A DNA stretch of 64,000 nt. Origin: Lepidurus packardi (lineage: Eukaryota > Arthropoda > Branchiopoda > Notostraca > Triopsidae). The stretch lies in NCBI GenBank assembly GCA_023053545.1, contig JAKZAN010000001.1, positions 2,686,565-2,750,564 on the forward strand. The letters run 5' to 3'. The notes below the pieces were generated by a model that searched no databases, had not been told where the DNA came from, and was given only the letters and a program-made list of their open reading frames with translations. Every line of letters begins with the position of its first letter. Positions within the stretch are counted from its first letter, which is position 1. Both the position numbers and the translations under genes were made by a program. This document shows positions 1-46,725 of the stretch, piece after piece.

Positions 1-2
1 AC

Positions 3-2888: not shown

Positions 2889-2910
2889 TAATTTTGTAAG
2901 TGTTATTACA

Positions 2911-2923
2911 AAAGGGGGGAGGA
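2911..2923 (+). promoter_or_regulatory. Polypurine tract of element A
   Basis: The purine run aaaggggggagga lies directly before the 3' LTR (TGTTG start at 2924). This is the expected place and composition for the plus-strand primer of an LTR retrotransposon. Confidence 0.75.
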
Positions 2924-3020
2924 TGTTGTAATTCTTAGAAGTATGTCCTTAACGACCTTGTTTATATTACTAAGAAGACCTTGTTTGCTGTTGACCCTGT
3001 CCCCTTTGCTATAACGTTAG

Positions 3021-3120
3021 CTTCCTCATTCCCTATTACCTTGACCCTAACCTTAGCTTCCTCATTCCCTATTACCTTGACCCTAACCTTAGCTTCCTCG
3101 TTCCTTAACCTTAGCTCATT
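3021..3120 (+). repeat. 36-bp tandem repeat upstream of the LTR TATA box
   Basis: Two full copies of a 36-bp unit beginning cttcctcattccctattacc are followed by a shortened third copy. Duplicated promoter-proximal blocks in LTRs often act as enhancers; that role is inference here. Confidence 0.7.
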
Positions 3121-3130
3121 ATATCCAGTG

Positions 3131-3140
3131 ATATAAAAGG
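3131..3140 (+). promoter_or_regulatory. TATA box of LTR A
   Basis: The sequence atataaaagg lies about 100 bp before the LTR end and matches the TATA consensus. It would drive element transcription from the equivalent 5' LTR. Confidence 0.55.
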
Positions 3141-3427
3141 GGTTGGTGTTTGGTAGTAAGGTGTGATTTCAGTTGGAAACGTAGCGGTGACAAGTTACTG
3201 TCAATACAGTGTTAGTCAGAAGAAATCGCCACAGGTTCTTCATGCTGTGAAGGGATCCACCAGGACAAATCTAATAAAGACACTAAAATAATGCATCAAA
3301 ATCCGGGCACTAAAAAGTGAACGTTACGTTTGCTACCACCATTTCCTTCCATAGTTTATCGCCCGTCACTCGCCCATACGCATTGTTATCTTTTATGAAT
3401 TTCACGATTGACGTGCGTTCAGCATTC

Positions 3428-3454
3428 CCGAAGTGGGCCAGTCTCCCACTTCGG
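3428..3454. other. Conserved hairpin in each satellite unit (first copy shown)
   Basis: A perfect inverted repeat has 10-base arms, ccgaagtggg and cccacttcgg, around a 7-base loop (ccagtct). The same hairpin recurs in all copies. Variation is confined mainly to the innermost arm bases and the loop (gtgggcc, gtggccc or gtgtccc; agtctccc or agtttccc). It lies within the minus-strand Myb-fossil frame. A functional role is not shown. Confidence 0.8.
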
Positions 3455-5330
3455 TGCTTGGGCTCCGTGACGGAAACAGCCACTACGGCTTCGAGCACTT
3501 CGACATTTGGATTGTATATTTCTGAATCGTAAGAGGACTTATTTAATCACGTAAACGAAAAGCGACCCAAAATCAAAACCTAGTTTTCTATATATATATA
3601 TAGAGGCAGAGGCAGAAGTTTCACGATTGGTCGATAGGTTTCCTAAAAAATGAAATACGTTTAAGGTAGGACAGTGTTTGATATTACGCGAAGATCGGAA
3701 CACCTTAGCCGGAAGTGCTCTTGTTCCAACTGGGAAATGATTTCGTCAAACATTTGGATTTTTGGCAGAATTTTCCTCATGAAATGGTTCTTCATGCTGT
3801 GGAGGGATTGACCAGGACAAATCTAATAAAGTCACTAAAATAATGCATCAAAATCCTGGCACTAAAAAGTGAACGTTTCGTTTGCTGCCACCATTTCCTT
3901 CCATAGTTTATCGCCCGTCACTCGCCCTTACGCATTGTTATCTTTTATGAATTTCACGATTGACGTGCGTTCAGCATTCCCGAAGTGGCCCAGTTTCCCA
4001 CTTCGGTGCTTGGGCTCCGTGACGGAAACAGCCACTACGGCTTCGAGCACTTCGACATTTGGATTGTATATTTCTGAATCGTAAGAGGACTTATATAATC
4101 ACGTAAACGAAAAGCGACCCAAAATCAAAACCTAGTTTTCTATATATATATATAGAGGCAGAGGCAGAAGTTTCACGATTGGTCGATAGGTTTCCTAAAA
4201 AATGAAATACGTTTAAGGTAGGACAGTGTTTGAAATTACGCGAAGATCGGAACACCTTAGCCGGAAGTGCTCTTGTTCCAACTGGGAAATGATTTCGTCA
4301 AACATTTGGATTTTTGGCAGAATTTTCCTCATGAAATGGTTCTTCATGCTGTGGAGGGATTGACCAGGACAAATCTAATAAAGTCACTAAAATAATGCAT
4401 CAAAATCCTGGCACTAAAAAGTGAACGTTACGTTTGCTGCCACCATTTCCTTCCATAGTTTATCGCCCGTCACTCGCCCTTACGCATTGTTATCTTTTAT
4501 GAATTTCACGATTGACGTGCGTTCAGCATTCCCGAAGTGGCCCAGTTTCCCACTTCGGTGCTTGGGCTCCGTGACGGAAACAGCCACTACGGCTTCGAGC
4601 ACTTCGACATTTGGATTGTATATTTCTGAATCGTAAGAGGACTTATATAATCACGTAAACGAAAAGCGACCCAAAATCAAAACCTAGTTTTCTATATATA
4701 TATATATATATATAGAGGCAGAGGCAGAAGTTTCACGATTGATCGATAGGTTTCCTAAAAAAAGAAATACGTTTAAGGTAGGACAGTGTTTGAAATTACG
4801 CGGAGATCGGAAAACCTTAGCCGGAAGTGCTCTTGTTCCAACTGGGAAATGATTTCGTCAAACATTTGGATTTTTGGCAGAATTTTCCTCATGAAATGGT
4901 TCTTCATGCTGTGGAGGGATCCACCAGGACAAATCTAATAAAGTCACTAAAATAATGCATCAAAATCCGGGCACTAAAAAGTGAACGTTACGTTTGCTGC
5001 CACCATTTCCTTCCATAGTTTATCGCCCGTCACTCGCCCTTACGCATTGTTATCTTTTATGAATTTCACGATTGACGTGCGTTCAGCATTCCCGAAGTGG
5101 CCCAGTTTCCCACTTCGGTGCTTGGGCTCCGTGACGGAAACAGCCACTACGGCTTCGAGCACTTCGACATTTGGATTGTATATTTCTGAATCGTAAGAGG
5201 ACTTATATAATCACGTAAACGAAAAGCGACCCAAAATCAAAACCTAGTTTTCTATATATATATATATATATAGAGGTAGAGGCAGAAGTTTCACGATTGA
5301 TCGATAGGTTTCCTAAAAAAAGAAATACGT

Positions 5331-5768
5331 TTAAGGTAGGACAGTGTTTGAAATTACGCGGAGATCGGAAAACCTTAGCCGGAAGTGCTCTTGTTCCAAC
5401 TGGGAAATGATTTCGTCAAACATTTGGATTTTTGGCAGAATTTTCCTCATGAAATGGTTCTTCATGCTGTGGAGGGATCCACCAGGACAAATCTAATAAA
5501 GTCACTAAAATAATGCATCAAAATCCGGGCACTAAAAAGTGAACGTTACGTTTGCTGCCACCATTTCCTTCCATAGTTTATCGCCCGTCACTCGCCCATA
5601 CGCATTGTTATCTTTTATGAATTTCACGATTGACGTGCGTTCAGCATTCCCGAAGTGGCCCAGTTTCCCACTTCGGTGCTTGGGCTCCGTGACGGAAACA
5701 GCCACTACGGCTTCGAGCACTTCGACATTTGGATTGTATATTTCTGAATCGTAAGAGGACTTATATAA
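5331..5768 (-). pseudogene. RAP1/TERF2IP-like Myb domain fossil in the satellite unit (representative copy)
   Basis: The minus-strand frame at 5768-5532 contains ERTSIVKFIKDNNAYGR and VTGDKLWKEMVAANVT. After an intron-like stretch ending in CCTCCACAG, a second frame (5466-5331, 136 bp) begins with SMKNHFMRKILPKI if the split codon is completed as Ser, and ends in TAA. Together these give the pattern of a RAP1-type Myb domain: a helix with Phe/Ile-Lys, then VxGxxLWxxM, then SMKxxFxxxILP. The similarity is judged by eye against the known TERF2IP Myb domain, which binds or supports telomeric DNA complexes. The donor side is unclear, because the first frame reaches TAG soon after the domain. Other units carry a TAA in the first frame or a 1-base loss in the second, so the sequence is treated as a decayed gene fragment amplified with the satellite. 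An unrelated SANT/Myb source is possible. Confidence 0.55.
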
Positions 5769-8700
5769 TCACGTAAACGAAAAGCGACCCAAAATCAAAA
5801 CCTAGTTTTCTATATATATATATATATAGAGGCAGAGGCAGAAGTTTCACGATTGATCGATAGGTTTCCTAAAAAAAGAAATACGTTTAAGGTAGGACAG
5901 TGTTTGAAATTACGCGGAGATCGGAAAACCTTAGCCGGAAGTGCTCTTGTTCCAACTGGGAAATGATTTCGTCAAACATTTGGATTTTTGGCAGAATTTT
6001 CCTCATGAAATGGTTCTTCATGCTGTGGAGGGATCCACCAGGACAAATCTAATAAAGTCACTAAAATAATGCATCAAAATCCGGGCACTAAAAAGTGAAC
6101 GTTACGTTTGCTGCCACCATTTCCTTCCATAGTTTATCGCCCGTCACTCGCCCTTACGCATTGTTATCTTTTATGAATTTCACGATTGACGTGCGTTCAG
6201 CATTCCCGAAGTGGCCCAGTTTCCCACTTCGGTGCTTGGGCTCCGTGACGGAAACAGCCACTACGGCTTCGAGCACTTCGACATTTGGATTGTATATTTC
6301 TGAATCGTAAGAGGACTTATATAATCACGTAAACGAAAAGCGACCCAAAATCAAAACCTAGTTTTCTATATATATATAGAGGCAGAGGCAGAAGTTTCAC
6401 GATTGATCGATAGGTTTCCTAAAAAAAGAAATACGTTTAAGGTAGGACAGTGTTTGAAATTACGCGGAGATCGGAAAACCTTAGCCGGAAGTGCTCTTGT
6501 TCCAACTGGGAAATGATTCGTCAAACATTTGGATTTTTGGCAGAATTTTCCTCATGAAATGGTTCTTCATGCTGTGGAGGGATCCACCAGGACAAATCTA
6601 ATAAAGTCACTAAAATAATGCATCAAAATCCGGGCACTAAAAAGTGAACGTTACGTTTGCTGCCACCATTTCCTTCCATAGTTTATCGCCCGTCACTCGC
6701 CCTTACGCATTGTTATCTTTTATGAATTTCACGATTGACGTGCGTTCAGCATTCCCGAAGTGGCCCAGTTTCCCACTTCGGTGCTTGGGCTCCGTGACGG
6801 AAACAGCCACTACGGCTTCGAGCACTTCGACATTTGGATTGTATATTTCTGAATCGTAAGAGGACTTATATAATCACGTAAACGAAAAGCGACCCAAAAT
6901 CAAAACCTAGTTTTCTATATATATATATATATATAGAGGCAGAGGCAGAAGTTTCACGATTGATCGATAGGTTTCCTAAAAAAAGAAATACGATTAAGGT
7001 AGGACAGTGTTTGAAATTACGCGGAGATCGGAAAACCTTAGCCGGAAGTGCTCTTGTTCCAACTGGGAAATGATTCGTCAAACATTTGGATTTTTGGCAG
7101 AATTTTCCTCATGAAATGGTTCTTCATGCTGTGGAGGGATCCACCAGGACAAATCTAATAAAGTCACTAAAATAATGCATCAAAATCCGGGCACTAAAAA
7201 GTGAACGTTACGTTTGCTGCCACCATTTCCTTCCATAGTTTATCGCCCGTCACTCGCCCATACGCATTGTTATCTTTTATGAATTTCACGATTGACGTGC
7301 GTTCAGCATTCCCGAAGTGGCCCAGTCTCCCACTTCGGTGCTTGGGCTCCGTGACGGAAACAGCCACTACGGCTTCGAGCACTTCGACATTTGGATTGTA
7401 TATTTCTGAATCGTAAGAGGACTTATATAATCACGTAAACGAAAAGCGACCCAAAATCAAAACCTAGTTTTCTATATATATATATATATATAGAGGCAGA
7501 GGCAGAAGTTTCACGATTGATCGATAGGTTTCCTAAAAAAAGAAATACGTTTAAGGTAGGACAGTGTTTGAAATTACGCGGAGATCGGAAAACCTTAGCC
7601 GGAAGTGCTCTTGTTCCAACTGGGAAATGATTCGTCAAACATTTGGATTTTTGGCAGAATTTTCCTCATGAAATGGTTCTTCATGCTGTGGAGGGATCCA
7701 CCAGGACAAATCTAATAAAGTCACTAAAATAATGCATCAAAATCCGGGCACTAAAAAGTGAACGTTACGTTTGCTGCCACCATTTCCTTCCATAGTTTAT
7801 CGCCCGTCACTCGCCCATACGCATTGTTATCTTTTATGAATTTCACGATTGACGTGCGTTCAGCATTCCCGAAGTGGCCCAGTTTCCCACTTCGGTGCTT
7901 GGGCTCCGTGACGGAAACAGCCACTACGGCTTCGAGCACTTCGACATTTGGATTGTATATTTCTGAATCGTAAGAGGACTTATATAATCACGTAAACGAA
8001 AAGCGACCCAAAATCAAAACCTAGTTTTCTATATATATATATATAGAGGCAGAGGCAGAAGTTTCACGATTGATCGATAGGTTTCCTAAAAAAAGAAATA
8101 CGTTTAAGGTAGGACAGTGTTTGAAATTACGCGGAGATCGGAAAACCTTAGCCGGAAGTGCTCTTGTTCCAACTGGGAAATGATTCGTCAAACATTTGGA
8201 TTTTTGGCAGAATTTTCCTCATGAAATGGTTCTTCATGCTGTGGAGGGATCCACCAGGACAAATCTAATAAAGTCACTAAAATAATGCATCAAAATCCGG
8301 GCACTAAAAAGTGAACGTTACGTTTGCTGCCACCATTTCCTTCCATAGTTTATCGCCCGTCACTCGCCCATACGCATTGTTATCTTTTATGAATTTCACG
8401 ATTGACGTGCGTTCAGCATTCCCGAAGTGGCCCAGTCTCCCACTTCGGTGCTTGGGCTCCGTGACGGAAACAGCCACTACGGCTTCGAGCACTTCGACAT
8501 TTGGATTGTATATTTCTGAATCGTAAGAGGACTTATATAATCACGTAAACGAAAAGCGACCCAAAATCAAAACCTAGTTTTCTATATATATATAGAGGCA
8601 GAGGCAGAAGTTTCACGATTGATCGATAGGTTTCCTAAAAAAAGAAATACGTTTAAGGTAGGACAGTGTTTGAAATTACGCGGAGATCGGAAAACCTTAG

Positions 8701-11700
8701 CCGGAAGTGCTCTTGTTCCAACTGGGAAATGATTCGTCAAACATTTGGATTTTTGGCAGAATTTTCCTCATGAAATGGTTCTTCATGCTGTGGAGGGATC
8801 CACCAGGACAAATCTAATAAAGTCACTAAAATAATGCATCAAAATCCGGGCACTAAAAAGTGAACGTTACGTTTGCTGCCACCATTTCCTTCCATAGTTT
8901 ATCGCCCGTCACTCGCCCATACGCATTGTTATCTTTTATGAATTTCACGATTGACGTGCGTTCAGCATTCCCGAAGTGGCCCAGTCTCCCACTTCGGTGC
9001 TTGGGCTCCGTGACGGAAACAGCCACTACGGCTTCGAGCACTTCGACATTTGGATTGTATATTTCTGAATCGTAAGAGGACTTATATAATCACGTAAACG
9101 AAAAGCGACCCAAAATCAAAACCTAGTTTTCTATATATATATATATAGAGGCAGAGGCAGAAGTTTCACGATTGATCGATAGGTTTCCTAAAAAAAGAAA
9201 TACGATTAAGGTAGGACAGTGTTTGAAATTACGCGGAGATCGGAAAACCTTAGCCGGAAGTGCTCTTGTTCCAACTGGGAAATGATTCGTCAAACATTTG
9301 GATTTTTGGCAGAATTTTCCTCATGAAATGGTTCTTCATGCTGTGGAGGGATCCACCAGGACAAATCTAATAAAGTCACTAAAATAATGCATCAAAATCC
9401 GGGCACTAAAAAGTGAACGTTACGTTTGCTGCCACCATTTCCTTCCATAGTTTATCGCCCGTCACTCGCCCATACGCATTGTTATCTTTTATGAATTTCA
9501 CGATTGACGTGCGTTCAGCATTCCCGAAGTGGCCCAGTCTCCCACTTCGGTGCTTGGGCTCCGTGACGGAAACAGCCACTACGGCTTCGAGCACTTCGAC
9601 ATTTGGATTGTATATTTCTGAATCGTAAGAGGACTTATATAATCACGTAAACGAAAAGCGACCCAAAATCAAAACCTAGTTTTCTATATATATATATATA
9701 GAGGCAGAGGCAGAAGTTTCACGATTGATCGATAGGTTTCCTAAAAAAAGAAATACGTTTAAGGTAGGACAGTGTTTGAAATTACGCGGAGATCGGAAAA
9801 CCTTAGCCGGAAGTGCTCTTGTTCCAACTGGGAAATGATTCGTCAAACATTTGGATTTTTGGCAGAATTTTCCTCATGAAATGGTTCTTCATGCTGTGGA
9901 GGGATCCACCAGGACAAATCTAATAAAGTCACTAAAATAATGCATCAAAATCCGGGCACTAAAAAGTGAACGTTACGTTTGCTGCCACCATTTCCTTCCA
10001 TAGTTTATCGCCCGTCACTCGCCCATACGCATTGTTATCTTTTATGAATTTCACGATTGACGTGCGTTCAGCATTCCCGAAGTGGGCCAGTCTCCCACTT
10101 CGGTGCTTGGGCTCCGTGACGGAAACAGCCACTACGGCTTCGAGCACTTCGACATTTGGATTGTATATTTCTGAATCGTAAGAGGACTTATATAATCACG
10201 TAAACGAAAAGCGACCCAAAATCAAAACCTAGTTTTCTATATATATATATATAGAGGCAGAGGCAGAAGTTTCACGATTGATCGATAGGTTTCCTAAAAA
10301 AAGAAATACGATTAAGGTAGGACAGTGTTTGAAATTACGCGGAGATCGGAAAACCTTAGCCGGAAGTGCTCTTGTTCCAACTGGGAAATGATTCGTCAAA
10401 CATTTGGATTTTTGGCAGAATTTTCCTCATGAAATGGTTCTTCATGCTGTGGAGGGATCCACCAGGACAAATCTAATAAAGTCACTAAAATAATGCATCA
10501 AAATCCGGGCACTAAAAAGTGAACGTTACGTTTGCTGCCACCATTTCCTTCCATAGTTTATCGCCCGTCACTCGCCCATACGCATTGTTATCTTTTATGA
10601 ATTTCACGATTGACGTGCGTTCAGCATTCCCGAAGTGGCCCAGTCTCCCACTTCGGTGCTTGGGCTCCGTGACGGAAACAGCCACTACGGCTTCGAGCAC
10701 TTCGACATTTGGATTGTATATTTCTGAATCGTAAGAGGACTTATATAATCACGTAAACGAAAAGCGACCCAAAATCAAAACCTAGTTTTCTATATATATA
10801 TATATATATATATAGAGGCAGAGGCAGAAGTTTCACGATTGATCGATAGGTTTCCTAAAAAAAGAAATACGTTTAAGGTAGGACAGTGTTTGAAATTACG
10901 CGGAGATCGGAAAACCTTAGCCGGAAGTGCTCTTGTTCCAACTGGGAAATGATTCGTCAAACATTTGGATTTTTGGCAGAATTTTCCTCATGAAATGGTT
11001 CTTCATGCTGTGGAGGGATCCACCAGGACAAATCTAATAAAGTCACTAAAATAATGCATCAAAATCCGGGCACTAAAAAGTGAACGTTACGTTTGCTGCC
11101 ACCATTTCCTTCCATAGTTTATCGCCCGTCACTCGCCCATACGCATTGTTATCTTTTATGAATTTCACGATTGACGTGCGTTCAGCATTCCCGAAGTGGC
11201 CCAGTCTCCCACTTCGGTGCTTGGGCTCCGTGACGGAAACAGCCACTACGGCTTCGAGCACTTCGACATTTGGATTGTATATTTCTGAATCGTAAGAGGA
11301 CTTATATAATCACGTAAACGAAAAGCGACCCAAAATCAAAACCTAGTTTTCTATATATATATAGAGGCAGAGGCAGAAGTTTCACGATTGATCGATAGGT
11401 TTCCTAAAAAAAGAAATACGATTAAGGTAGGACAGTGTTTGAAATTACGCGGAGATCGGAAAACCTTAGCCGGAAGTGCTCTTGTTCCAACTGGGAAATG
11501 ATTCGTCAAACATTTGGATTTTTGGCAGAATTTTCCTCATGAAATGGTTCTTCATGCTGTGGAGGGATCCACCAGGACAAATCTAATAAAGTCACTAAAA
11601 TAATGCATCAAAATCCGGGCACTAAAAAGTGAACGTTACGTTTGCTGCCACCATTTCCTTCCATAGTTTATCGCCCGTCACTCGCCCATACGCATTGTTA

Positions 11701-14700
11701 TCTTTTATGAATTTCACGATTGACGTGCGTTCAGCATTCCCGAAGTGGCCCAGTTTCCCACTTCGGTGCTTGGGCTCCGTGACGGAAACAGCCACTACGG
11801 CTTCGAGCACTTCGACATTTGGATTGTATATTTCTGAATCGTAAGAGGACTTATATAATCACGTAAACGAAAAGCGACCCAAAATCAAAACCTAGTTTTC
11901 TATATATATATAGAGAGGCAGAGGCAGAAGTTTCACGATTGATCGATAGGTTTCCTAAAAAAAGAAATACGTTTAAGGTAGGACAGTGTTTGAAATTACG
12001 CGGAGATCGGAAAACCTTAGCCGGAAGTGCTCTTGTTCCAACTGGGAAATGATTCGTCAAACATTTGGATTTTTGGCAGAATTTTCCTCATGAAATGGTT
12101 CTTCATGCTGTGGAGGGATCCACCAGGACAAATCTAATAAAGTCACTAAAATAATGCATCAAAATCCGGGCACTAAAAAGTGAACGTTACGTTTGCTGCC
12201 ACCATTTCCTTCCATAGTTTATCGCCCGTCACTCGCCCATACGCATTGTTATCTTTTATGAATTTCACGATTGACGTGCGTTCAGCATTCCCGAAGTGGC
12301 CCAGTCTCCCACTTCGGTGCTTGGGCTCCGTGACGGAAACAGCCACTACGGCTTCGAGCACTTCGACATTTGGATTGTATATTTCTGAATCGTAAGAGGA
12401 CTTATATAATCACGTAAACGAAAAGCGACCCAAAATCAAAACCTAGTTTTTTATATATATATATATAGAGGCAGAGGCAGAAGTTTCACGATTGATCGAT
12501 AGGTTTCCTAAAAAAAGAAATACGTTTAAGGTAGGACAGTGTTTGAAATTACGCGGAGATCGGAAAACCTTAGCCGGAAGTGCTCTTGTTCCAACTGGGA
12601 AATGATTCGTCAAACATTTGGATTTTTGGCAGAATTTTCCTCATGAAATGGTTCTTCATGCTGTGGAGGGATCCACCAGGACAAATCTAATAAAGTCACT
12701 AAAATAATGCATCAAAATCCGGGCACTAAAAAGTGAACGTTACGTTTGCTGCCACCATTTCCTTCCATAGTTTATCGCCCGTCACTCGCCCTTACGCATT
12801 GTTATCTTTTATGAATTTCACGATTGACGTGCGTTCAGCATTCCCGAAGTGGCCCAGTTTCCCACTTCGGTGCTTGGGCTCCGTGACGGAAACAGCCACT
12901 ACGGCTTCGAGCACTTCGACATTTGGATTGTATATTTCTGAATCGTAAGAGGACTTATATAATCACGTAAACGAAAAGCGACCCAAAATCAAAACCTAGT
13001 TTTCTATATATATATATATATATAGAGGTAGAGGCAGAAGTTTCACGATTGATCGATAGGTTTCCTAAAAAAAGAAATACGTTTAAGGTAGGACAGTGTT
13101 TGAAATTACGCGGAGATCGGAAAACCTTAGCCGGAAGTGCTCTTGTTCCAACTGGGAAATGATTCGTCAAACATTTGGATTTTTGGCAGAATTTTCCTCA
13201 TGAAATGGTTCTTCATGCTGTGGAGGGATCCACCAGGACAAATCTAATAAAGTCACTAAAATAATGCATCAAAATCCGGGCACTAAAAAGTGAACGTTAC
13301 GTTTGCTGCCACCATTTCCTTCCATAGTTTATCGCCCGTCACTCGCCCTTACGCATTGTTATCTTTTATGAATTTCACGATTGACGTGCGTTCAGCATTC
13401 CCGAAGTGGCCCAGTTTCCCACTTCGGTGCTTGGGCTCCGTGACGGAAACAGCCACTACGGCTTCGAGCACTTCGACATTTGGATTGTATATTTCTGAAT
13501 CGTAAGAGGACTTATATAATCACGTAAACGAAAAGCGACCCAAAATCAAAACCTAGTTTTCTATATATATATATAGAGGCAGAGGCAGAAGTTTCACGAT
13601 TGATCGATAGGTTTCCTAAAAAAAGAAATACGATTAAGGTAGGACAGTGTTTGAAATTACGCGGAGATCGGAAAACCTTAGCCGGAAGTGCTCTTGTTCC
13701 AACTGGGAAATGATTCGTCAAACATTTGGATTTTTGGCAGAATTTTCCTCATGAAATGGTTCTTCATGCTGTGGAGGGATCCACCAGGACAAATCTAATA
13801 AAGTCACTAAAATAATGCATCAAAATCCGGGCACTAAAAAGTGAACGTTACGTTTGCTGCCACCATTTCCTTCCATAGTTTATCGCCCGTCACTCGCCCA
13901 TACGCATTGTTATCTTTTATGAATTTCACGATTGACGTGCGTTCAGCATTCCCGAAGTGGCCCAGTTTCCCACTTCGGTGCTTGGGCTCCGTGACGGAAA
14001 CAGCCACTACGGCTTCGAGCACTTCGACATTTGGATTGTATATTTCTGAATCGTAAGAGGACTTATATAATCACGTAAACGAAAAGCGACCCAAAATCAA
14101 AACCTAGTTTTCTATATATATATATATAGAGGTAGAGGCAGAAGTTTCACGATTGATCGATAGGTTTCCTAAAAAAAGAAATACGTTTAAGGTAGGACAG
14201 TGTTTGAAATTACGCGGAGATCGGAAAACCTTAGCCGGAAGTGCTCTTGTTCCAACTGGGAAATGATTCGTCAAACATTTGGATTTTTGGCAGAATTTTC
14301 CTCATGAAATGGTTCTTCATGCTGTGGAGGGATCCACCAGGACAAATCTAATAAAGTCACTAAAATAATGCATCAAAATCCGGGCACTAAAAAGTGAACG
14401 TTACGTTTGCTGCCACCATTTCCTTCCATAGTTTATCGCCCGTCACTCGCCCATACGCATTGTTATCTTTTATGAATTTCACGATTGACGTGCGTTCAGC
14501 ATTCCCGAAGTGGCCCAGTCTCCCACTTCGGTGCTTGGGCTCCGTGACGGAAACAGCCACTACGGCTTCGAGCACTTCGACATTTGGATTGTATATTTCT
14601 GAATCGTAAGAGGACTTATATAATCACGTAAACGAAAAGCGACCCAAAATCAAAACCTAGTTTTCTATATATATATATATAGAGGTAGAGGCAGAAGTTT

Positions 14701-20228: not shown

Positions 20229-20328
20229 NNNNNNNNNNNNNNNNNNNNNNNNNNNNNNNNNNNNNNNNNNNNNNNNNNNNNNNNNNNNNNNNNNNNNNNN
20301 NNNNNNNNNNNNNNNNNNNNNNNNNNNN
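20229..20328. other. Assembly gap (100 N) inside the satellite
   Basis: Exactly 100 N lie between partial units. Landmarks either side are 916 bp apart, while two units need about 1105. At least ~290 bp must therefore fit in the gap, and any whole number of extra units may also be missing. The N count is a placeholder. Confidence 0.97.
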
Positions 20329-35300: not shown

Positions 35301-37672
35301 TCGGTGCTTGGGCTCCGTGACGGAAACAGCCACTACGGCTTCGAGCACTTCGACATTTGGATTGTATATTTCTGAATCGTAAGAGGACTTATATAATCAA
35401 GTAAACGAAAAGCGACCCAAAATCAAAACCTAGTTTTCTATATATATAGAGGTAGAGGCAGAAGTTTCACGATTGATCGATAGGTTTCCTAAAAAAAGAA
35501 ATACGTTTAAGGTAGGACAGTGTTTGAAATTACGCGGAGATCGGAAAACCTTAGCCGGAAGTGCTCTTGTTCCAACTGGGAAATGATTTCGTCAAACATT
35601 TGGATTTTCGGCAGAATTTTCCTCATGAAATGGTTCTTCATGCTGTGGAGGGATCCACCAGGACAAATCTAATAAAGTCACTAAAATAATGCATCAAAAT
35701 CCTGGCACTAAAAAGTGAACGTTACGTTTGCTGCCACCATTTCCTTCCATAGTTTATCGCCCGTCACTCGCCCATACGCATTGTTATCTTTTATGAATTT
35801 CACGATTGACGTGCGTTCAGCATTCCCGAAGTGGGCCAGTCTCCCACTTCGGTGCTTGGGCTCCGTGACGGAAACAGCCACTACGGCTTCGAGCACTTCG
35901 ACATTTGGATTGTATATTTCTGAATCGTAAGAGGACTTATATAATCACGTAAACGAAAAGCGACCCAAAATCAAAACCTAGTTTTCTATATATATAGAGG
36001 TAGAGGCAGAAGTTTCACGATTGATCGATAGGTTTCCTAAAAAAAGAAATACGTTTAAGGTAGGACAGTGTTTGAAATTACGCGGAGATCGGAAAACCTT
36101 AGCCGGAAGTGCTCTTGTTCCAACTGGGAAATGATTTCGTCAAAAATTTGGATTTTCGGCAGAATTTTCCTCATGAAATGGTTCTTCATGCTGTGGAGGG
36201 ATCCACCAGGACAAATCTAATAAAGTCACTAAAATAATGCATCAAAATCCGGGCACTAAAAAGTGAACGTTACGTTTGCTGCCACCATTTCCTTCCGTAG
36301 TTTATCGCCCGTCACTCGCCCTTACGCATTGTTATCTTTTATGAATTTCACGATTGACATGCGTTCAGCATTCCCGAAGTGTCCCAGTTTCCCACTTCGG
36401 TGCTTGGGCTCCGTGACGGAAACAGCCACTACGGCTTCGAGCACTTCGACATTTGGATTGTATATTTCTGAATCGTAAGAGGACTTATATAATCACGTAA
36501 ACGAAAAGCGACCCAAAATCAAAACCTAGTTTTCTATATATATAGAGGTAGAGGCAGAAGTTTCACGATTGATCGATAGGTTTCCTAAAAAAAGAAATAC
36601 GTTTAAGGTAGGACAGTGTTTGAAATTACGCGGAGATCGGAAAACCTTAGCCGGAAGTGCTCTTGTTCCAACTGGGAAATGATTTTGTCAAACATTTGGA
36701 TTTTTGGCAGAATTTTCCTCATGAAATGGTTCTTCATGCTGTGGAGGGATCCACCAGGACAAATCTAATAAAGTCACTAAAATAATGCATCAAAATCCGG
36801 GCACTAAGAAGTGAACGTTACGTTTGCTGCCACCATTTCCTTCCATAGTTTATCGCCCGTCACTCGCCCATACGCATTGTTATCTTTTATGAATTTCACG
36901 ATTGACGTGCGTTCAGCATTCCCGAAGTGGGCCAGTCTCCCACTTCGGTGCTTGGGCTCCGTGACGGAAACAGCCACTACGGCTTCGAGCACTTCGACAT
37001 TTGTATTGTATATTTCTGAATCGTAAGAGGACTTATATAATCACGTAAACGAAAAGCGACCCAAAATCAAAACCTAGTTTTCTATATATATAGAGGTAGA
37101 GGCAGAAGTTTCACGATTGATCGATAGGTTTCCTAAAAAAAGAAATACGTTTAAGGTAGGACAGTGTTTGAAATTACGCGGAGATCGGAAAACCTTAGCC
37201 GGAAGTGCTCTTGTTCCAACTGGGAAATGATTTCGTCAAACATTTGGATTTTCGGCAGAATTTTCATCATGAAATGGTTCTTCATGCTGTGGAGGGATCC
37301 ACCAGGACAAATCTAATAAAGTCACTAAAATAATGCATCAAAATCCGGGCACTAAAAAGTGAACGTTACGTTTGCTGCCACCATTTCCTTCCGTAGTTTA
37401 TCGCCCGTCACTCGCCCTTACGCATTGTTATCTTTTATGAATTTCACGATTGACATGCGTTCAGCATTCCCGAAGTGTCCCAGTTTCCCACTTCGGTGCT
37501 TGGGCTCCGTGACGGAAACAGCCACTACGGCTTCGAGCACTTCGACATTTGGATTGTATATTTCTGAATCGTAAGAGGACTTATATAATCACGTAAACGA
37601 AAAGGGACCCAAAATCAAAACCTAGGTTTCTCTATATATATAGAGGCAGAGGCAGAAGTTTCACGATTGATC

Positions 37673-37677
37673 GATAG
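37673..37677. other. Target site duplication (gatag), left copy
   Basis: The satellite bases gatag precede the LTR and recur at 43575-43579 right after the other LTR. In intact units the sequence occurs once (tcgataggtttcc), as expected for a BEL/Pao insertion. Confidence 0.95.
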
Positions 37678-37931
37678 TGTCACCGATATAACGAAATAGT
37701 GACAGGGAGACGAGTTTCGATGTTCCGATTAAATGTAATAACAAACATAGCAAAAAAAACGATTACAAAGTTATCCATTAACACTCTCTCCGATGTCTCT
37801 CGAGCATCTGCCCTCCGCTCCTCCTTTGTCCCTCGTCAACCCTGCCCTCGCCCAACTCACAACGTACCGTCGACGTATTTCCCGAAACCGTTGACGTATG
37901 TCCCAGAATCTCGCGGAACTGGTCCGCGACA
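37678..37931 (-). repeat. 3' LTR of element B
   Basis: This is a 254-bp copy of the LTR at 43323-43574. Read in element orientation it starts TGTCGCGG and ends CGGTGACA, giving short inverted TGTC/GACA ends. No clean polypurine tract is visible beside it. Confidence 0.95.
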
Positions 37932-37954
37932 TAGCCGGCCCAGGTTTAGCTTCT

Positions 37955-40900
37955 CTAAACCTCTGTTGTAGTTTCGAGGATACATAATTTAGCCACTGGA
38001 CGTGTGAATTCTCCGGATTTTGTCTTTACTAAAGCTGCTCTTACGATTCCATCTGGTCCGGGTATCGTCTTGACTACCCGGCCTACGGGCCAATTCCCAC
38101 GAGGCGTTTGACTGTCGGCGATTAGGACGACGTCGTCTTTCTGCAGATTGCGATTGGGGCGTGACCACTTTTTTCTTTCGATTAAGTACGGGAGATATTC
38201 TTTCATTCATCTCTGCCAGAAATGATTTACGATGGCTTGGGCGGCTCTCCATTTCTTTCTAGAGGTTTCTTCGGAACTTCTACGGACGGGCACGAAGAGG
38301 GGTCCAAAATAATCTATGCCCGTGTATGAAAACGGGGGGTTAGAAGGTTGTATTCGGCAAAGGGGTAGAGGGGCCATCATAGGCATTGCAGGTTTAGCAT
38401 TGCGTTTTTTGCACATACTACATCTCCAAATTACGCTTCTAATTGTCGCTCGGCCTCTGAGGATCCAATAACGATCACGTGTTTGATGGAGCGTTCTATC
38501 TGTTGAAGAGTGAACCACTTCTCGATGGGCGTTTTCGATTATAAGATCGGTTACACGATGTTTGGCAGGTAGTATGATGGGATGACGAGCATTATAGCTT
38601 AGCGTAGAATGCTCCAGTCGGCCACCTACTCGTAATATGCCGTGTGCATCGAAAAATGGAGTAAGGTGTACGAGACGTGAGCTCTTTGCGAGTGGTCGGT
38701 CTTTTTTTATGGCTTCGAAGTCGTCTGTGAAACTTTCCCTTTGTATTAAGCGAATGCAAATGCATAAGGCATCGTCGAGTTCATTTACTGATAAAACTGG
38801 TAAAATCTTAGTGCCTTTGCATCGTTTTGCGAAACGGAGCATTGCAGCTATTACTCTTTGTAGCCGAAGAAGGGTGGAGGATCTTTCCATTAGACCAGTT
38901 AAGGAATTTTCTGACGCGCTTAAGGTTCCCGTCCACGCAGTTCGTACTACTTCGGGGTCTTCTTTTGGTGGTTCTTTGAACGATTGGTCTTTAAACGATA
39001 AATCGGTGTTTGTGAGAAACGCCGGACCTTGGAACCATCGATGGTCCATTTGCAATTGTTTCGGGGTTAAGCCTCTTGAACAATCGTCAGCAGGATTCTC
39101 CTTTCCCACAATATGTCGCCATTGACGGCAGTTACTTGATTCTAAGATTTCTCCAATGCGATGACTAACGAACACCTGGAATCTACACGTTGACGAGTTA
39201 ATCCATTGAAGCACGGTAGTGGAGTCTGTCCAGAGCGTAACTTGACTTGCGGGAAGACGAAGTTCATTGCAGCAGGATGTGGCGAGTCTAAGTCCGATAA
39301 TAGCGCCCTGTAATTCGAGCCTGGGAATTGATATAGGTTTCAGTGGGGCCACGCGGGTCTTTGACATAACGAAATGGATGCTACTGGTGCGATTTTCGTA
39401 AACGTGTCTAATATACGCCACGGCGCCAAATCCTAATTGTGAAGCGTCACAAAATACGTGCAGTTCTGATCCGACTGATGATTGAGGAAGTCTGAGGCAA
39501 CGTGATAGGCGAAGCTGCTCCAACAATTGCAGCTCGCCGGCCCAGTTGTTCCATCAAGTTTGAATTTCGAACGGGAGAGACTCATCCCAGTCGTAGCCTC
39601 CTCTCCAAATGTCTTGAAGTAAGATTTTTGCAGAGAAAACTAGCGGGCTTAAAAAACCAAGGGGGTCGTAAATGGATGCTACGCAACGAAGTACTTGTCT
39701 CTTTGTTGTGGCTTCTTTCGGGAGGTTGATCCGGAATATGAAGGTATCTGACTCGCAATCCCATAGTAGGCCGAGGGTTCTTTCGCATGGTAAACGATCT
39801 AGATCCATGTTCAACTCCGAGATATTTCTTTCGGAAGGGGGAATGGAATTTAGGACATGCCGAGAGGAAGAAACCCATTTGGTTAATCTGAAGCCACCGA
39901 GTTTCAGCAATTCCATCAGTTGATGAGAAATCGTTACTGCTTCAGTTTCCGTTTCAACAGAATCCAAAAAGTTATCGACATAGAAATTTTCTTTAACTTT
40001 AGACGCGACACGTGGAAACTTCGATTTGTTGTCCTCGGCGGTACGGTGGAGAGCGTACAGACAAATGGATGGTGACGATATCGCACCGAAAACATGAACG
40101 AGCATCTGGTATGTATGGCGAGCATAATCACTGTTAGGATGTCTCCAGAAAAAACGAAAGGCCGATTGATCATCCGGTTTAACCAATACTTGATGGTACA
40201 TTTTTTCAATATCCGCAGATAACGGAACTAAATTGCGGCGAAATCGAAGGACTCCAATTAAACTAGTTAGTAAATCAGGTCCCTTAAGTAATGCTTCGTT
40301 TAAAGAGTAATATCCATGCGTTGCAGCAGCGTCGAATACTACTCGAAGTTTATCGGGTTTATGCGGATTTAAAACTGCATGGTGCGGCAGATACCACGTT
40401 TTTCCATTCGAAACTCGGATTTCCTCTGGCTCTAACTTCCGCGCGTGATTGAGCTTAACATATTCGTCGATGATTTGCTTGTACTTGTGCGCTAACTTGC
40501 GGTCTTTTGAGAACCTACGTTCTAGAGCAAAGAAACGTCGTAAGGCGGTTGAGCGGTTGTCTGGTAGCTGTGGTTGGTCCTCTTTCCAGAGAAGGCCACA
40601 TTCGTACCGCTTGCCTACATTTCTCGTGGTGGCTTCCACAATGGCAAGTGCTCTTTCGTCGTCTCGAGATTTTGGGGGATTTGAAGTTTTGATACCGATA
40701 GCATCAGTTTGCCAAAACTGTTTAACCAATTCGTTGATCTCGTCGGAAACTGGTTGACGAATTAGATTTACACGACGGACCGAACCGAACGACGTTCGAT
40801 CAGGGAGCTTGCCTGTTGCACACCATCCGAAAGGTGTCAATACAGCCCGTGGGGCGATAGTTCCTTTGGGAGCTTTAATGACTTTAACTTGGTCGTGTGT

Positions 40901-43234
40901 GTTATCGACTTCGTTCCCAAGCAGAATGGTAACCTTTGAAGTATCGAGTGGAACGAGGGGTAGGTTGCATAGGTGTGGCCATAGTTTCTTTTCTTTTGGC
41001 CAGTTGATGGACCGAAGACTGCAGTTCAGTATCGGAAGAGTGACAGCACCGACGACGAACATTTTGGTTTTGTTGTCGCGACTAGCAACCTCGAAATTGA
41101 CTATCGAGCTCATAAAGGTTGGATCACGTCCATGATATGAACCTAGTCGTAAAGGACCTTGCGGACCCTTTAAACCCAGCAAGTCGGCGGTACTCTGTAG
41201 AATAATAGAGACTTCACTTCCTGGATCCAAAAGGGCGTAGGTATCCAACGATTTCCCATTTGCTTTTAAAGTGACTGGGACCACTGACAGAATAACCGGT
41301 TGAAGTTGCTGCGAAGTAGTTCCCACATGGGTGATTTCAGCTTCTTCTTCAATCGGGAGAACGTTATAAGCGGAGGCGGTGGGCGTACTAGGTTGGTAAA
41401 CTCTCGACGCCCCGTGAAGCAGAGTATGATGGCGACCTTTACAACCATCGAGTCCGCAAATCGATTTGCGTCTACATTCTTTGGAAAAGTGACCCGAGGT
41501 AAGGCACCGGAAGCAACACTTACTTTCTTTGACGTATTCGGCGCGCTGTTTGACGGTAAGAGATTTGAACTTTTCACATCGAGCGATATGATGTGCCCCA
41601 TTACACATACTGCAAGCGGGAAGGGAGTTGTTGGGTTGTGATGCTGTTTCGTTGGAAGCGTTCGTCGTCGCAAGAACGGTGGGAGGTTGTTCTAAGCCTT
41701 TTGCACCTTTCTTCCGTTGGTTTCCTTTGCTTGAGTGTGTCGTTTGTGCGAGTACCGTAGAGGGTTGTCCAGGGACTACAGACATAACTTCATTGTCTAA
41801 CCACGCGTCGAAGTCGATTAAAGTTGGGGCGCGTTTTAAGAATAAAACGCGTGCACCCCACTTAGTTCTAAGGTGCTCAGGTAGTTTATCACGTACTTGA
41901 CGTACGACAGTTGGGGCCGCTAAATCGGCTTCATACCCGGCTTGTCTCAGGTTGGTGACTGCCCCGCGTAGTTCGCTAAAGAAGGTTTGTAATGAAACGA
42001 AATTGCCTTCTTTTACATTGGGAAGCTTAAGCAAACCGTCGACGCAGGCTTCGGAAATAAATGACGGGTGACCGTAACGTCTTTGCAATTCTTGTAACGA
42101 CTGAATATACGTTGCCGGGTTTATTAACGTTTGGTCGATGCTTTTCCTCACGTTTGTTGCAAGCAACTCTCGGAGATATGCCATCCGCTGAGCGGCACTT
42201 GGCACTGCAGCATGTACAAAGCTTTTAAATTGACCAATGAACAGTGGCCAATCTCGAGGATCTTTCGAAAACTGTTTGATGTGGATTTTAGACAAATGAT
42301 TTACTACATTCGAAAATCCCTCCATATGGGATGTATCGTTTGCATTTGCGGTATAGATCCACACATCGGGCGACGATGTTGGAGACCTTCCGGATTCTAA
42401 AGGCGCCGCGACTACCTGAGTCGAAGCGGTCCACATCGGATGGTTTTGCGAAGGGTCGTTGACTTGATTGACGAATGAAGGGGTTGGACCGTTCATACAA
42501 GTAGGAAACGAGGGTTGACCGTGGTTTGGACTGAATTGTTCCTTTACTTCTTTGTGACGAGGCTCATATTTCACTTGAGGCTGTTCCAATTGGCGTCGCT
42601 GCTCATGATCTTGCCGGTTTGCGTTCATCATGTGCACCACGTCCTCCAAGGTTTCTTGTGCTTTTAGTATAAGCTGTCTTTGATGCGCCTCGTCTGCTAT
42701 CGCTGTACGAAGTTGGCGAAGGCGGAGCTCGGCGCTCTCCGAAAGGGGTGGTGAGTCATGATGACGAACTGCGACTTGCGATGTTTGATCGGCTGAGGAA
42801 ACTTTTGATGTATCAGAGACTAGGGACGACGCATAACGACTGGCGATGGAAGAGGCTGGATCATCAGCACGTATCTTCAGATAGTTGTCAATAGACTTGA
42901 AACTGTCAGAAACCATTATATCCAATGCCGAATAATATCGATCGGCCGTGGATTCCGAAGAGCCACCAATTTCCACGTATTTCTTGTTCAACTCCGAACA
43001 TTCACTTAAATTGGTAGCGAGCTGGTTTCTTAAAAGCTTTAAGGCTGTACGACTGCCTCTATCACTGATCAACGGCGAAATTCGGCCGATAAGGTCCATT
43101 AAGCGCCGTTTAGAGGCCGTACGTAACCTCTTGACGGTTGCAGGATCATTTAAGTCGAATTGATCGTCTTGATCACTGTCGGCCTCAAGTTCACAGATAG
43201 CACGATCAACGTTTTGGAATGAAGCTGTAGCCAT
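37955..43234 (-). pseudogene. BEL/Pao gag-pol polyprotein (element B)
   Basis: A single frame runs from ATG at 43234 to the stop at 37955, interrupted by TGA at 39554-39556 and 38207-38209. Order: gag with a DUF1759-type capsid region (KQFSKDPRDWPLF near residue 315), Cys/His knuckles (CSMCNGAHHIARC near 540), protease (ALLDPGSEVSII near 668), reverse transcriptase (KLRVVFDAAA near 963, YVDNFLDS near 1084), RNase H ([14 protein letters not shown]), the integrase zinc region (ENAHREVVHSS, CSMCKKRNAK) and the C-terminal DUF5641-like tail. The first 1,226 codons are open. After DYFGPLFVPVRRSSEETS the text jumps to AAQAIVNHFW near 38250. The integrase DDE core of roughly 200 residues is therefore missing. 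The RT box reads YVDN, not YVDD. Only gag, protease and most of RT could be made. Confidence 0.93.
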
Positions 43235-43300
43235 TTCTATGGTTTGACGAAGTTGACGAAATGACGAAATAACGAATGGGAAACAGGAAACGGGACTAGT

Positions 43301-43318
43301 TTCCCGGTCGATGCACCA
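43301..43318 (-). promoter_or_regulatory. Primer-binding site of element B
   Basis: Four bases inside the 5' LTR the minus strand reads TGGTGCATCGACCGGGAA. This is complementary to a tRNA 3' end in CCA and differs by one base from the usual tRNA-Gly acceptor end. The tRNA identity is inference. Elements C and D have the same site. Confidence 0.8.
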
Positions 43319-43322
43319 ATAA

Positions 43323-43574
43323 TGTCACCGATATAACGAAATAGTGACAGGGAGACGAGTTTCGATGTTCCGATTAATGTAATAACAAACATAGCAAAAA
43401 AACCGATTACAAAGTTATCCATTAACACTCTCTCCGATGTCTCTCGAGCATCTGCCCTCCGCTCCTCCTTTGTCCCTCGTCAAACCTGCCCTCGCCCAAC
43501 TCACAACGTACCGTCGACGTATTTCCCGGAACCGTTGACGTAGTCCCAGAATCTCGCGGAACTGGTCTGCGACA
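43323..43574 (-). repeat. 5' LTR of element B
   Basis: The 252-bp LTR is followed by the second gatag target copy and resumed satellite sequence. Its ends (TGTCGC and ATCGGTGACA in element orientation) match those of the element C LTR, so B and C belong to related families. Confidence 0.95.
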
Positions 43575-46500
43575 GATAGGTTTCCTAAAAAAAGAAATAC
43601 GTTTAAGGTAGGACAGTGTTTGAAATTACGCGGAGATCGGAAAACCTTAGCCGGAAGTGCTCTTGTTCCAACTGGGAAATGATTCGTCAAACATTTGGAT
43701 TTTTGGCAGAATTTTCCTCATGAAATGGTTCTTCATGCTGTGGAGGGATCGACCAGGACAAATCTAATAAAGTCACTAAAATAATGCATCAAAATCCTGG
43801 CACTAAAAAGTGAACGTTACGCTTGCTGCCACCATTTCCTTCCATAGTTTATCGCCCGTCACTCGCCCTTACGCATTGTTATCTTTTATGAATTTCACGA
43901 TTGACGTGCGTTCAGCATTCCCGAAGTGGCCCAGTTTCCCACTTCGGTGCTTGGGCTCCGTGACGGAAACAGCCACTACGGCTTCGAGCACTTCGACATT
44001 TGGATTGTATATTTCTGAATCGTAAGAGGACTTATATAATCACGTAAACGAAAAGCGACCCAAAATCAAAACTAGTTTTATATATATAAATAGAGGCAGA
44101 GGCAGAAGTTTCACGATTGATCGATAGGTTTCCTAAAAAAAGAAATACGTTTAAGGTAGGACAGTGTTTGAAATTACGCGGAGATCGGAAAACCTTAGCC
44201 GGAAGTGCTCTTGTTCAAACTGGGAAATGATTTCGTCAAACATTTGGATTTTTGGCAGAATTTTCCTCATGAAATGGTTCTTCATGCTGTGGAGGGATCC
44301 ACCAGGACAAATCTAGTAAAGTCAGTAAAATAATGCATCAAAATCCTGGCACTAAAAAGTGAACGTTACGTTTGCTGCCACCATTTCCTTCCATAGTTTA
44401 TCGCCCGTCACTCGCCCATACGCATTGTTATCTTTTATGAATTTCACGATTGACGTGCGTTCACCATTCCCGAAGTGGCCCAGTTTCCCACTTCGGTGCT
44501 TGGGCTCCGTGACGGAAACAGCCACAACGGCTTCGAGCACTTCGACATTTGGATTGTATATTTCTGAATCGTAAGAGGACTTTTATAATCACGTAAACGA
44601 AAAGCGACCCAAAATCAAAAACTAGTTTTCTATATATATATATATAGAGGCAGAGGCAGAAGTTTCACGATTGATCGATAGGTTTCCTAAAAAAAGAAAT
44701 ACGTTTAAGGTAGGACAGTGTTTGAAATTACGCGGAGATCGGAAAACCTTAGCCGGAAGTGCTCTTGTTCAAACTGGGAAATGATTTCGTCAAACATTTG
44801 GATTTTTGGCAGAATTTTCCTCATGAAATGGTTCTTCATGCTGTGGAGGGATCCACCAGGACAAATCTAGTAAAGTCACTAAAATAATGCATCAAAATCC
44901 TGGCACTAAAAAGTGAACGTTACGTTTGCTGCCACCATTTCCTTCCATAGTTTATCGCCCGTCACTCGCCCATACGCATTGTTATCTTTTATGAATTTCA
45001 CGATTGACGTGCGTTCAGCATTCCAGAAGTGGCCCAGTCTCCCACTTCGGTGCTTGGGCTCCGTGACGGAAACAGCCACTACGGCTTCGAGCACTTCGAC
45101 ATTTGGATTGTATATTTCTGAATCGTAAGAGGACTTATATGATCACGTAAACGAAAAGCGACCCAAAATCAAAACCTGGTTTTCTATATATATATATAGA
45201 GGCAGAGGCAGAAGTTTCACGATTGATCGATAGTTTTCCTAAAAAAAGAAATACGTTTAAGGTAGGACAGTGTTTGAAATTACGCGGAGATAGGAAAACC
45301 TTAGCCGGAAGTGCTCTTGTTCCAACTGGGAAATGATTTCGTCAAACATTTGGATTTTTGGCAGAATTTTCCTCATGAAGTGGTTCTTCATGCTGTGGAG
45401 GGATCCACCAGGACAAATCTAATAAAGTCACTAAAATAATGCATCAAAATCCGGGCACTAAAAAGTGAACGTTACGTTTGCTGCCACCATTTCCTTCCAT
45501 AGTTTATCGCCCGTCACTCGCCCATACGCATTGTTATCTTTTATGAATTTCACGATTGACGTGCGTTCAGCATTCCCGAAGTGGCCCAGTTTCACACTTC
45601 GGTGCTTGGGCTCCGTGACGGAAACAGCCACTACGGCTTCGAGCACTTCGACATTTGGATTGTATATTTCTGAATCGTAAGAGGACTTACATAATCACGT
45701 AAACGAAAAGCGACCCAAAATCAAAACCTAGTTTTCTATATATATATATAGAGGCAGAGGCAGAAGTTTCACGATTGATCGATAGGTTTCCTAAAAAAAA
45801 GAAATACGTTTAAGGTAGGACAGTGTTTGAAATTACGCGGAGATCGGAAAACCTTAGCCGGAAGTGCTCTTGTTCCAACTGGGAAATGATTCGTCAAACA
45901 TTTGGATTTTTGGCAGAATTTTCCTCATGAAATGGTTCTTCATGCTGTGGAGGGATCCACCAGGACAAATCTAATAAAGTCACTAAAATAATGCATCAAA
46001 ATCCTGGCACTAAAAAGTGAACGTTAGGTTTGCTGCCACCATTTCCTTCCATAATTTATCGCCCGTCACTCGCCCGTACGCATTGTTATCTTTTATGAAT
46101 TTCACGATTGACGTGCGTTCAGCATTCCCGAAGTGGCCCAGTCTCCCACTTCGGTGCTTGGGCTCCGTGACGGAAACAGCCACTACGGCTTCGAGCACTT
46201 CGACATTTGGATTGTATATTTCTGAATCGTAAGAGGACTTTTATAATCACGTAAACGAAAAGCGACCCCAAAATCAAAACTAAGTTTTATATATATATAT
46301 AGAGGCAGGAGAGGCAGAGGCAGAAATTTCACGATTGATCGATAAGTTTCCTAAAAAAAGAAATACGTTTAAGGTAGGACAGTGTTTGAAATTACGCGGA
46401 GATCGGAAAACCTTAGCCGGAAGTGCTCTTGTTCCAACTGGGAAATGATTTCGTCAAACATTTGGATTTTTGGCAGAATTTTCCTCATGAAATGGTTCTT

Positions 46501-46725
46501 CATGCTGTGGAGGGATCCACCAGGACAAATCTAATAAAGTCACTAAAATAATGCATCAAAATCCTGGCACTAAAAAGTGAACGTTAGGTTTGCTGCCACC
46601 ATTTCCTTCCATAATTTATCGCCCGTCACTCGCCCATACGCATTGTTATCTTTTATGAATTTCACGATTGACGTGCGTTCAGCATTCCCGAAGTGGCCCA
46701 GTTTCCCACTTCGGTGCTTGGGATG
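43575..46725. repeat. Tandem satellite array, right block (~6 copies)
   Basis: The array resumes inside the unit interrupted by element B and continues for five full copies and a truncated sixth. These copies carry more private changes than the interior (for example ttcaaactgg, gatagttttcc and gttaggtttgc). This is usual for the edge of an array, where homogenisation is weaker. The last unit stops within the hairpin-proximal region at about 46725. Confidence 0.95.

Follow-up and report, generated by a model that had tools for sequence, protein, structure and literature searches.

Satellite DNAs are traced to seeds such as ribosomal DNA (rDNA) spacers and transposon parts in the part of PMC5615363 that names such seeds, and no protein-gene seed is given in that part. 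In maize, the Kindr and Trkin kinesins act on knob repeats and Kindr is silenced by small RNAs; the portion of the same source that deals with kinesins also records them as recurring in known meiotic drive systems and places kinesin genes, including KIF20A, on B chromosomes (PMC8437031). KIF20A is listed as complete in the section of PMC5377258 on the B chromosome of Eyprepocnemis plorans, and the main text of a tandem-repeat survey of Daphnia pulex carries no mention of kinesins (PMC3152781). The locus described here is a tandem array in a window of 64,000 nucleotides, the whole stretch that was analysed, located at C1:2686565-2750564 (contig JAKZAN010000001.1) of the 108.6-Mb genome assembly of Lepidurus packardi. 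The array is probably a non-coding satellite derived from a RAP1-like telomere-protein gene by tandem duplication of its Myb segment, and a related Myb segment forms the 3′ end of a chimeric kinesin-6 gene in the same genome.

A satellite with the exons of a RAP1-like gene

The array is composed of units of approximately 553 bp found over positions 3234-46722 of the window, in agreement with the tandem array that the first-pass annotation had placed at 3234-46725. Blastn searches with one unit divide it into three minus-strand blocks. Block 1 (3234-20228) consists of head-to-tail units, the first of which is cut on its left side by a long terminal repeat (LTR) element, as seen from the insertion limits and the target-site duplication GGTTC. 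It is separated from block 2 (20329-37698) by an assembly gap of 100 N (20229-20328), and the right edge of block 3 (43575-46722) passes into the spacer typical of a second array at C1:2768-2778k. All 115 of 115 blast pieces lie on a single strand. A 553-bp consensus was built from 102 complete units of the window and the array to its left, among which the mean pairwise p-distance is 0.0138 and adjacent units differ by 0.9%; the head-to-tail, same-strand and homogenised units are those of a satellite DNA. The amplification of about 69-fold that had been reported holds as a count in view, with 67 occurrences in the window of a 33-nt exon-B marker (≤3 mismatches) and 68 of an exon-A anchor (≤3 edits), but not as a total. 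The main array extends leftward to C1:2657069 and spans C1:2657069-2733286, approximately 76 kb, of which approximately 60 kb is satellite by the sum of the blastn blocks, and it holds 107 of the 165 (157 + 8) exon-B markers found genome-wide at ≤3 mismatches (reversed control 0). It is interrupted by a BEL/Pao element, the 100-N gap and two LTR elements to the left of window position 3234. A (TA)n tract of approximately 370 bp (piece L022, 280-660) is found in one unit close to the left end of the array, at the place where the other inspected units have only a short TA run.

On the minus strand, the unit consensus contains two frames, exon A (HFGNAERTSIVKFIKDNNAYGRVTGDKLWKEMVAAN) and exon B (ICPGGSLHSMKNHFMRKILPKIQMFDEIISQLEQEHFRL), which had been read from the letters as the two halves of a RAP1-like Myb domain. 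The spliced frames bear this out with a match to Pfam Myb_Rap1 (E 4.3e-5, 24.3 bits); against the same profile exon A by itself gives an E value of 0.064 and exon B by itself gives no match. The intron-like stretch between the frames is indeed an intron, though its boundaries had been misplaced: homology to a gene on C3 delimits an intron of 57 nt, GTAACG...TTTATTAG, so that the "VT" of the earlier reading is intronic and "CCTCCACAG" falls within exon B. In an example unit, exon A with the first half of the domain occupies 36822-36929 (minus strand), the intron 36765-36821, at the position it has in the C3 gene and in the kinesin chimera, and exon B with the second half 36646-36764. A further segment at 37001-37081 on the same strand is homologous to the 5′ untranslated region (5′UTR) intron and exon of the RAP1-like gene and has lost its acceptor AG.

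The C3 gene was reached through a genome-wide scan with the Myb_Rap1 profile, which gave three weak hits, none above the cut-off, two of them adjacent on C3. The hit on C42 (17.7 bits) was set aside, having no blast match to the unit. The gene model at C3:8784588-8788749 (minus strand), made from homology and by eye, has 14 exons and an open product of 1031 amino acids; its splice ends are GT-AG for 12 exons, and the last two exons were read directly from the sequence. The product contains BRCT_2 in three stretches on its N-terminal side (52.4 bits, cut-off 27.3) and Myb_Rap1 in two stretches (67.4 bits, cut-off 27.1), and its sole match in the PDB at E≤0.1 is the Myb domain of human RAP1 (1FEX, E 2.3e-5). 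No RAP1 C-terminal (RCT) domain is among the Pfam matches listed at E≤10, where a short divergent domain could escape, and the gene is therefore named only RAP1-like. Part of the protein gave no match in NCBIfam, a prokaryotic library.

Exons 9 and 10 of the C3 gene correspond to unit exons A and B, with introns at identical places. A related gene with the two halves in identical order and with identical junctions, and with a BRCT and Myb architecture, is thus present in the genome; together with the Myb_Rap1 match it sustains the proposal that a fragment of a telomere-protein gene with its intron gave rise to the array. The Myb frames are not due to chance, because the same frames and junctions occur in the intact C3 model. 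The profile score of the unit stays under the cut-off, and its Myb homology is taken from its DNA match to that gene. The recurrent matches of the units to the C3 gene region fall at gene positions 767-846 (102 matches), which comprise the end of the 5′UTR intron with its exon, and 3034-3399 (100 with exactly these limits), which comprise the Myb exons with introns, at 75-85% identity. The unit is therefore an internally deleted gene fragment: it carries 80 bp from the end of the RAP1 5′UTR intron and part of the following exon, then the exons and two short introns of the first Myb domain, and the intervening BRCT exons are deleted. The satellite does not directly copy the C3 gene; it is more similar to the RAP1-like pieces that are joined to a kinesin-6.

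Dispersed relatives and a kinesin-6 chimera

Further relatives fall into class N, pieces with BRCT exons, and class M, pieces with the 5′UTR intron and the Myb exons. The protein search with the RAP1-like product scored 45 of 244 candidates, and the copy counts are lower bounds. Two class N pieces carry the 5′UTR segment and exons 1-4. The first (L039, C1:2549.8-2551.1k) is the nearest to the array among those found, and the second (L040, C1:4180500-4184300) is a near-perfect palindrome (98.7%) with 1.9-kb arms that carries two RAP1 BRCT pieces and has degenerate TTAGG repeats close to the middle. Both look neutral, since their three codon positions differ about equally from the C3 gene. In two others (L042 and L048) the match to the gene starts at exon 3 in the stretches taken, which are without exons 1-2, and their rows for these exons were unused. 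Protein search gave further class N matches at C16:50471 and C5:11243945. Around the array itself (C1:2557000-2750564), a search for direct RAP1 relics at E≤1 returned only the recurrent Myb and 5′UTR matches and otherwise single short hits, of which the sole one in protein space (L026) has an E value of 0.63.

Solo class M copies on C5 (L041) and C1 (L047) extend further in the 5′ direction than the unit does and stop at the same 3′ limit. Class M arrays occupy at least C16:1869567-1884043 and at least C5:11427115-11431785, and the second C1 array (C1:2768444-2778658) has the same Myb segment. This last array differs in its spacer and has a period of 597 bp, so that there was apparently more than one round of amplification, unless the spacer was swapped later.

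Upstream of the solo class M copies lies a kinesin gene. The resulting chimera encodes a KIF20A-type kinesin-6 motor (Pfam Kinesin, 271 bits; closest PDB chains KIF20A at 279-280 bits, next kind 178), a coiled coil and then the two Myb exons in frame, ending in RKAINE. The fusion junction pattern occurs three times, with one copy open and two broken. The open chimera (C5:56628-52286, minus strand, L049 and L041, junction C5:52816) has 14 exons, GT-AG introns and 1129 codons. In the broken copy at C1:4185232-4189564 (L050 and L047, junction C1:4189000), exon 1 is 1 nt and exon 11 is 19 nt shorter than in the C5 copy, and the frame is lost. The other broken copy (C5:68.3-71.6k, L056, junction C5:71050) lacks approximately 500 bp, its 5′ end was not found, and a stop stands at the end of exon B. 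Two kinesin-6 genes of the parental type were located at C5:6736-6742k (L054) and C3:112-118k (L055), the latter approximately 112 kb into C3. They are 98.7% identical over 3.3 kb, evidently the result of a recent duplication, and in the stretches examined neither has a Myb end, both diverging from the chimera after ...EEN.

In the 768 codons of exons 1-10 the C5 chimera differs from the parental kinesin with a synonymous divergence (dS) of 0.065, a nonsynonymous divergence (dN) of 0.053 and an intron divergence of 0.130. The dN/dS ratio to the parents is 0.77-0.81 for the C5 chimera and 0.60 for the C1 chimera, the parents compared to each other give 0.16, and the two chimeras compared to each other give 1.38. 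When all 123 kinesin substitutions were simulated on the chimera branch, a mean of 4.5 stops arose and the probability of no stop was 0.006.

The array probably originated as follows. A RAP1-like gene would have been duplicated and its BRCT-bearing portion (class N) separated from the Myb-bearing one (class M), with a duplicated kinesin-6 landing between them so that its coding end runs into the Myb exons. The pieces, several of which lie close to the ends of contigs, would then have spread by segmental duplication that was palindromic in part. Tandem duplication of one Myb segment, with homogenisation by unequal exchange, would have followed, apparently on more than one occasion, and the arrays would have lost coding to become mostly passive repeat DNA receiving LTR insertions. 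The dispersed copies on C1, C5 and C16 with common limits and the palindromic copy at C1:4180.5-4184.3k would also suit capture of RAP1 and kinesin pieces by a transposon (Pack-type or Helitron-like transduplication), with the satellite as a by-product. However, the centre of the palindrome holds degenerate TTAGG repeats and the similarity between copies continues beyond the RAP1 limits, and such a capture is quite unlikely.

Several points weigh against the origin by gene duplication and tandem amplification outlined above. The 24.3 bits of the spliced unit lie under the Myb_Rap1 gathering cut-off of 27.1, and the gene models were all made by eye and homology. The unit is without any kinesin sequence, and the array could therefore stem from a class M piece predating the fusion; by distance, the satellite is nested within neither chimera. 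The probability of no stop rises to 0.087 with 62 (half) of the substitutions on the chimera branch and to 0.17 with 45, and it is uncertain whether the chimera has been retained by selection. The case for a subtelomeric route is weak, because no TTAGG array was found at C5 or C16 and the C1 pieces are 2.5-4.2 Mb inside a 14-Mb contig. TTAGG arrays (59 + 1 overlapping matches, control 0) were located at the end of C3, on C86 and in the interior of C1; the pattern search found none at C5 or C16, and the pattern TTAGGG gave 0 matches. Finally, the divergence of exons and introns described in the next section is unexplained by simple neutral decay.

Coding status and divergence of exons and introns

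The splice dinucleotides are intact in 100 of the 102 units, exon A is open in 87 and exon B in 66, which would accord with translation of the units into many small Myb proteins or a single long poly-Myb protein. Only 54 of the 102, however, have both exons open together with the splice sites, and the polymorphism among units is without a codon-position signal. Diversity is slightly reduced in the exons (0.0115 and 0.0086) relative to the introns (0.0125 and 0.0171) and the spacer (0.0167); by codon position it is 0.0089/0.0112/0.0145 in exon A and 0.0079/0.0129/0.0049 in exon B, with no consistent third-position excess across the 102 units. The acceptor of the preceding intron is also lost, with a 12-bp deletion at the acceptor that the chimeras have before exon A, and the consensus read by eye past exon B runs into a stop. 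Translation of the units is extremely improbable on these grounds. We take the array to be non-coding, because only 54 of the units are fully open and a third-position excess is missing, and stops were presumably spread between units by homogenisation.

The Myb exons of the RAP1-like gene differ from those of the chimera and satellite with dS 1.03-1.13 and dN 0.20-0.25 (77 codons; the unit of the C5:11427k array, L044, is left out of this dN/dS table), and in the same comparison the short introns show only 7-8/56 and 2-4/60 differences. The synonymous excess (31/53) over the segment's own introns (10/116) is significant by Fisher's test (p=1e-11, NG86 counts rounded). A class N piece (L040) has 21/62, 29/108 and 20/128 differences from the gene in its introns, and the Myb synonymous sites exceed class N introns as well (p=4e-6, counts rounded). 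The kinesin part shows the opposite pattern, with introns (0.130) above dS (0.065). In venom gene families, introns have been reported to evolve more slowly than exons.

The same pattern is found among the chimeras. Between the copies at C5:52k and C5:71k, kinesin exons E3-E10 show 5 differences in 1574 sites, the Myb exons 34/285 and introns I11 and I12 3/191 (p=1.3e-5). I13 was excluded from the last figure, as the similarity of the C5:71k copy ends inside it (18/37 and 17/37, inflated), and E1, E2 and E11 were excluded because the C5:71k partner is truncated or deleted there; all kinesin exons together give 42/2086. Between the C5 and C1 chimeras, synonymous differences number 10.5/52.3 in the Myb part and 8/529.6 in the kinesin part. 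Three readings fit the anomaly and none is proved by it: escape of spliced mRNAs from small RNAs of the array, conversion among diverged Myb copies, or constraint on short introns.

The first of these would make the arrays a source of hairpin RNA (hpRNA), small interfering RNA (siRNA) or PIWI-interacting RNA (piRNA) that silences the chimera, with gene copies escaping by changing their spliced exons, synonymous sites included. The high Myb dS beside nearly unchanged introns, the excess of Myb exon differences over I11 and I12 between the two C5 copies, and the raised Myb synonymous divergence between the C5 and C1 chimeras would all follow from it. Sharing of 22-mers points the same way. The spliced Myb exons of the chimera have 19/265 in common with the units in the C5 copy and 68/265 in the broken C1 copy, whereas the spliced RAP1 Myb-1 exons have 0/309 in common with the 102 units, and zero also across seven values of k from 18 to 28; with its introns, the C3 gene region has 6/4979 22-mers present in units, all outside the spliced Myb-1 exons. 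Given this difference in sharing, a perfect-match effect of array RNA on mature RAP1 mRNA through the Myb-1 stretch is unlikely and one on the chimera is possible. Against silencing, the pooled tests with all three RAP1-derived introns are not significant (C5-C1 Myb exons 22/286 vs introns 12/252, p=0.21; C5:52k-C5:71k p=0.39 and C1-C5:71k p=0.19, both affected by I13), conversion from a diverged Myb copy or short-intron constraint would look alike, and at approximately 25-30% exon divergence few common 22-mers are expected anyway. Silencing by the arrays is accordingly unlikely. A wider genetic conflict, in which a selfish chimeric kinesin-6 would use the Myb domain as a chromosome-binding tail, the Myb arrays would be its silencer or its binding target and the exons would be recoded to escape, is very unlikely.

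Mobile elements and comparison with known systems

The array has received LTR retroelements. A BEL/Pao element on the minus strand (window 37678-43574) is inserted in a unit, with matches to Pao peptidase and RVT_1 and a 5-bp target-site duplication, GATAG. Its LTRs have 4 differences in 252 aligned sites and 2 gap sites, and its overlap with block 2 is the end of a blast match. The element that splits the array at the left of the window (right part at 1-3233, plus strand; judged by eye to be BEL/Pao-like, with one frame that matches RVT_1) lies whole at C1:2684724-2689797, with LTRs identical at 309/310 sites and the 5-bp duplication GGTTC. Both elements are evidently young. A third LTR-type element in the array (C1:2664.3-2668.95k, piece L022 ~7340 to L015 ~1950) is gypsy-like by eye, and L015 1-1713 gives RVT_1 and gag-asp protease matches just under the Pfam cut-offs. 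To the right of the array, a broken DDE transposase at window 47825-48849, which we take to be Harbinger-like, matches DDE_Tnp_4 with 48.7 bits in 48487-48849, and the frame at 47825-48331 gives no match. Frames of LTR elements follow at 56984-60941 and 62210-64000, of which 59568-60941 matches Pao peptidase (182 bits) and the rest were recognised by eye; a 10-bp repeat, CCGTGACAAA, is present in 9.9 copies at 59462-59560. Elsewhere in the assembly, open COX1 frames without recoding occur on the small contigs C52, C214 and C43 and probably come from contaminating or symbiotic bacteria. COX1 insertions of the mitochondrial type, in which TGA codons occur, are numerous and lie on C1, C2, C4, C5, C6, C21 and C38; they look crustacean, similar to Daphnia, and the TTAGG repeat fits an arthropod.

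To our knowledge, no fusion of a kinesin-6 with a RAP1 Myb domain has been described, and the literature searches made brought up no title or abstract opening that deals with a satellite derived from RAP1 or with a fusion of kinesin and RAP1. A gene-seeded satellite is of a known kind; what is new is the kinesin-6::RAP1-Myb chimera with a 3′ end related to the array, and the anomaly of exons and introns adds interest. A single genome here documents the likely source gene, the intermediates and the end product of a satellite made from the exons and introns of a telomere gene, and the open chimera model predicts a motor potentially equipped with a chromosome-binding domain of its own. The fusion and the arrays of its tail segment together form a testable candidate for genetic conflict, because kinesins recur in drive systems and the arrays match that tail segment.

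Like TERF2IP/RAP1, the C3 gene has BRCT followed by Myb_Rap1, and TTAGG is present at the C3 end and on C86; it differs in having three BRCT and two Myb stretches and no RCT match, and its telomere role is predicted. The chimera resembles KIF20A/MKLP2 kinesin-6 in its motor, which is closest to KIF20A, and the two parental copies have other C-termini; unlike KIF20A/MKLP2, one duplicated lineage here ends in a RAP1 Myb domain. The array shares with the satellites in the part of PMC5615363 cited above its tandem homogenised units made from pre-existing sequence, but the seed here is made up of exons together with introns from a protein-coding telomere gene. Extra copies of the KIF20A kind are also a feature of the B chromosomes of Eyprepocnemis plorans, as far as the cited section of PMC5377258 describes them, whereas the copies here lie on large contigs. 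The maize Kindr/Trkin system, in the portion of PMC8437031 that bears on it, is alike in its duplicated kinesin genes alongside tandem repeats; it involves kinesin-14 where the chimera is a kinesin-6, and in the present system the repeat is built from the segment that also makes up the chimera's Myb exons.

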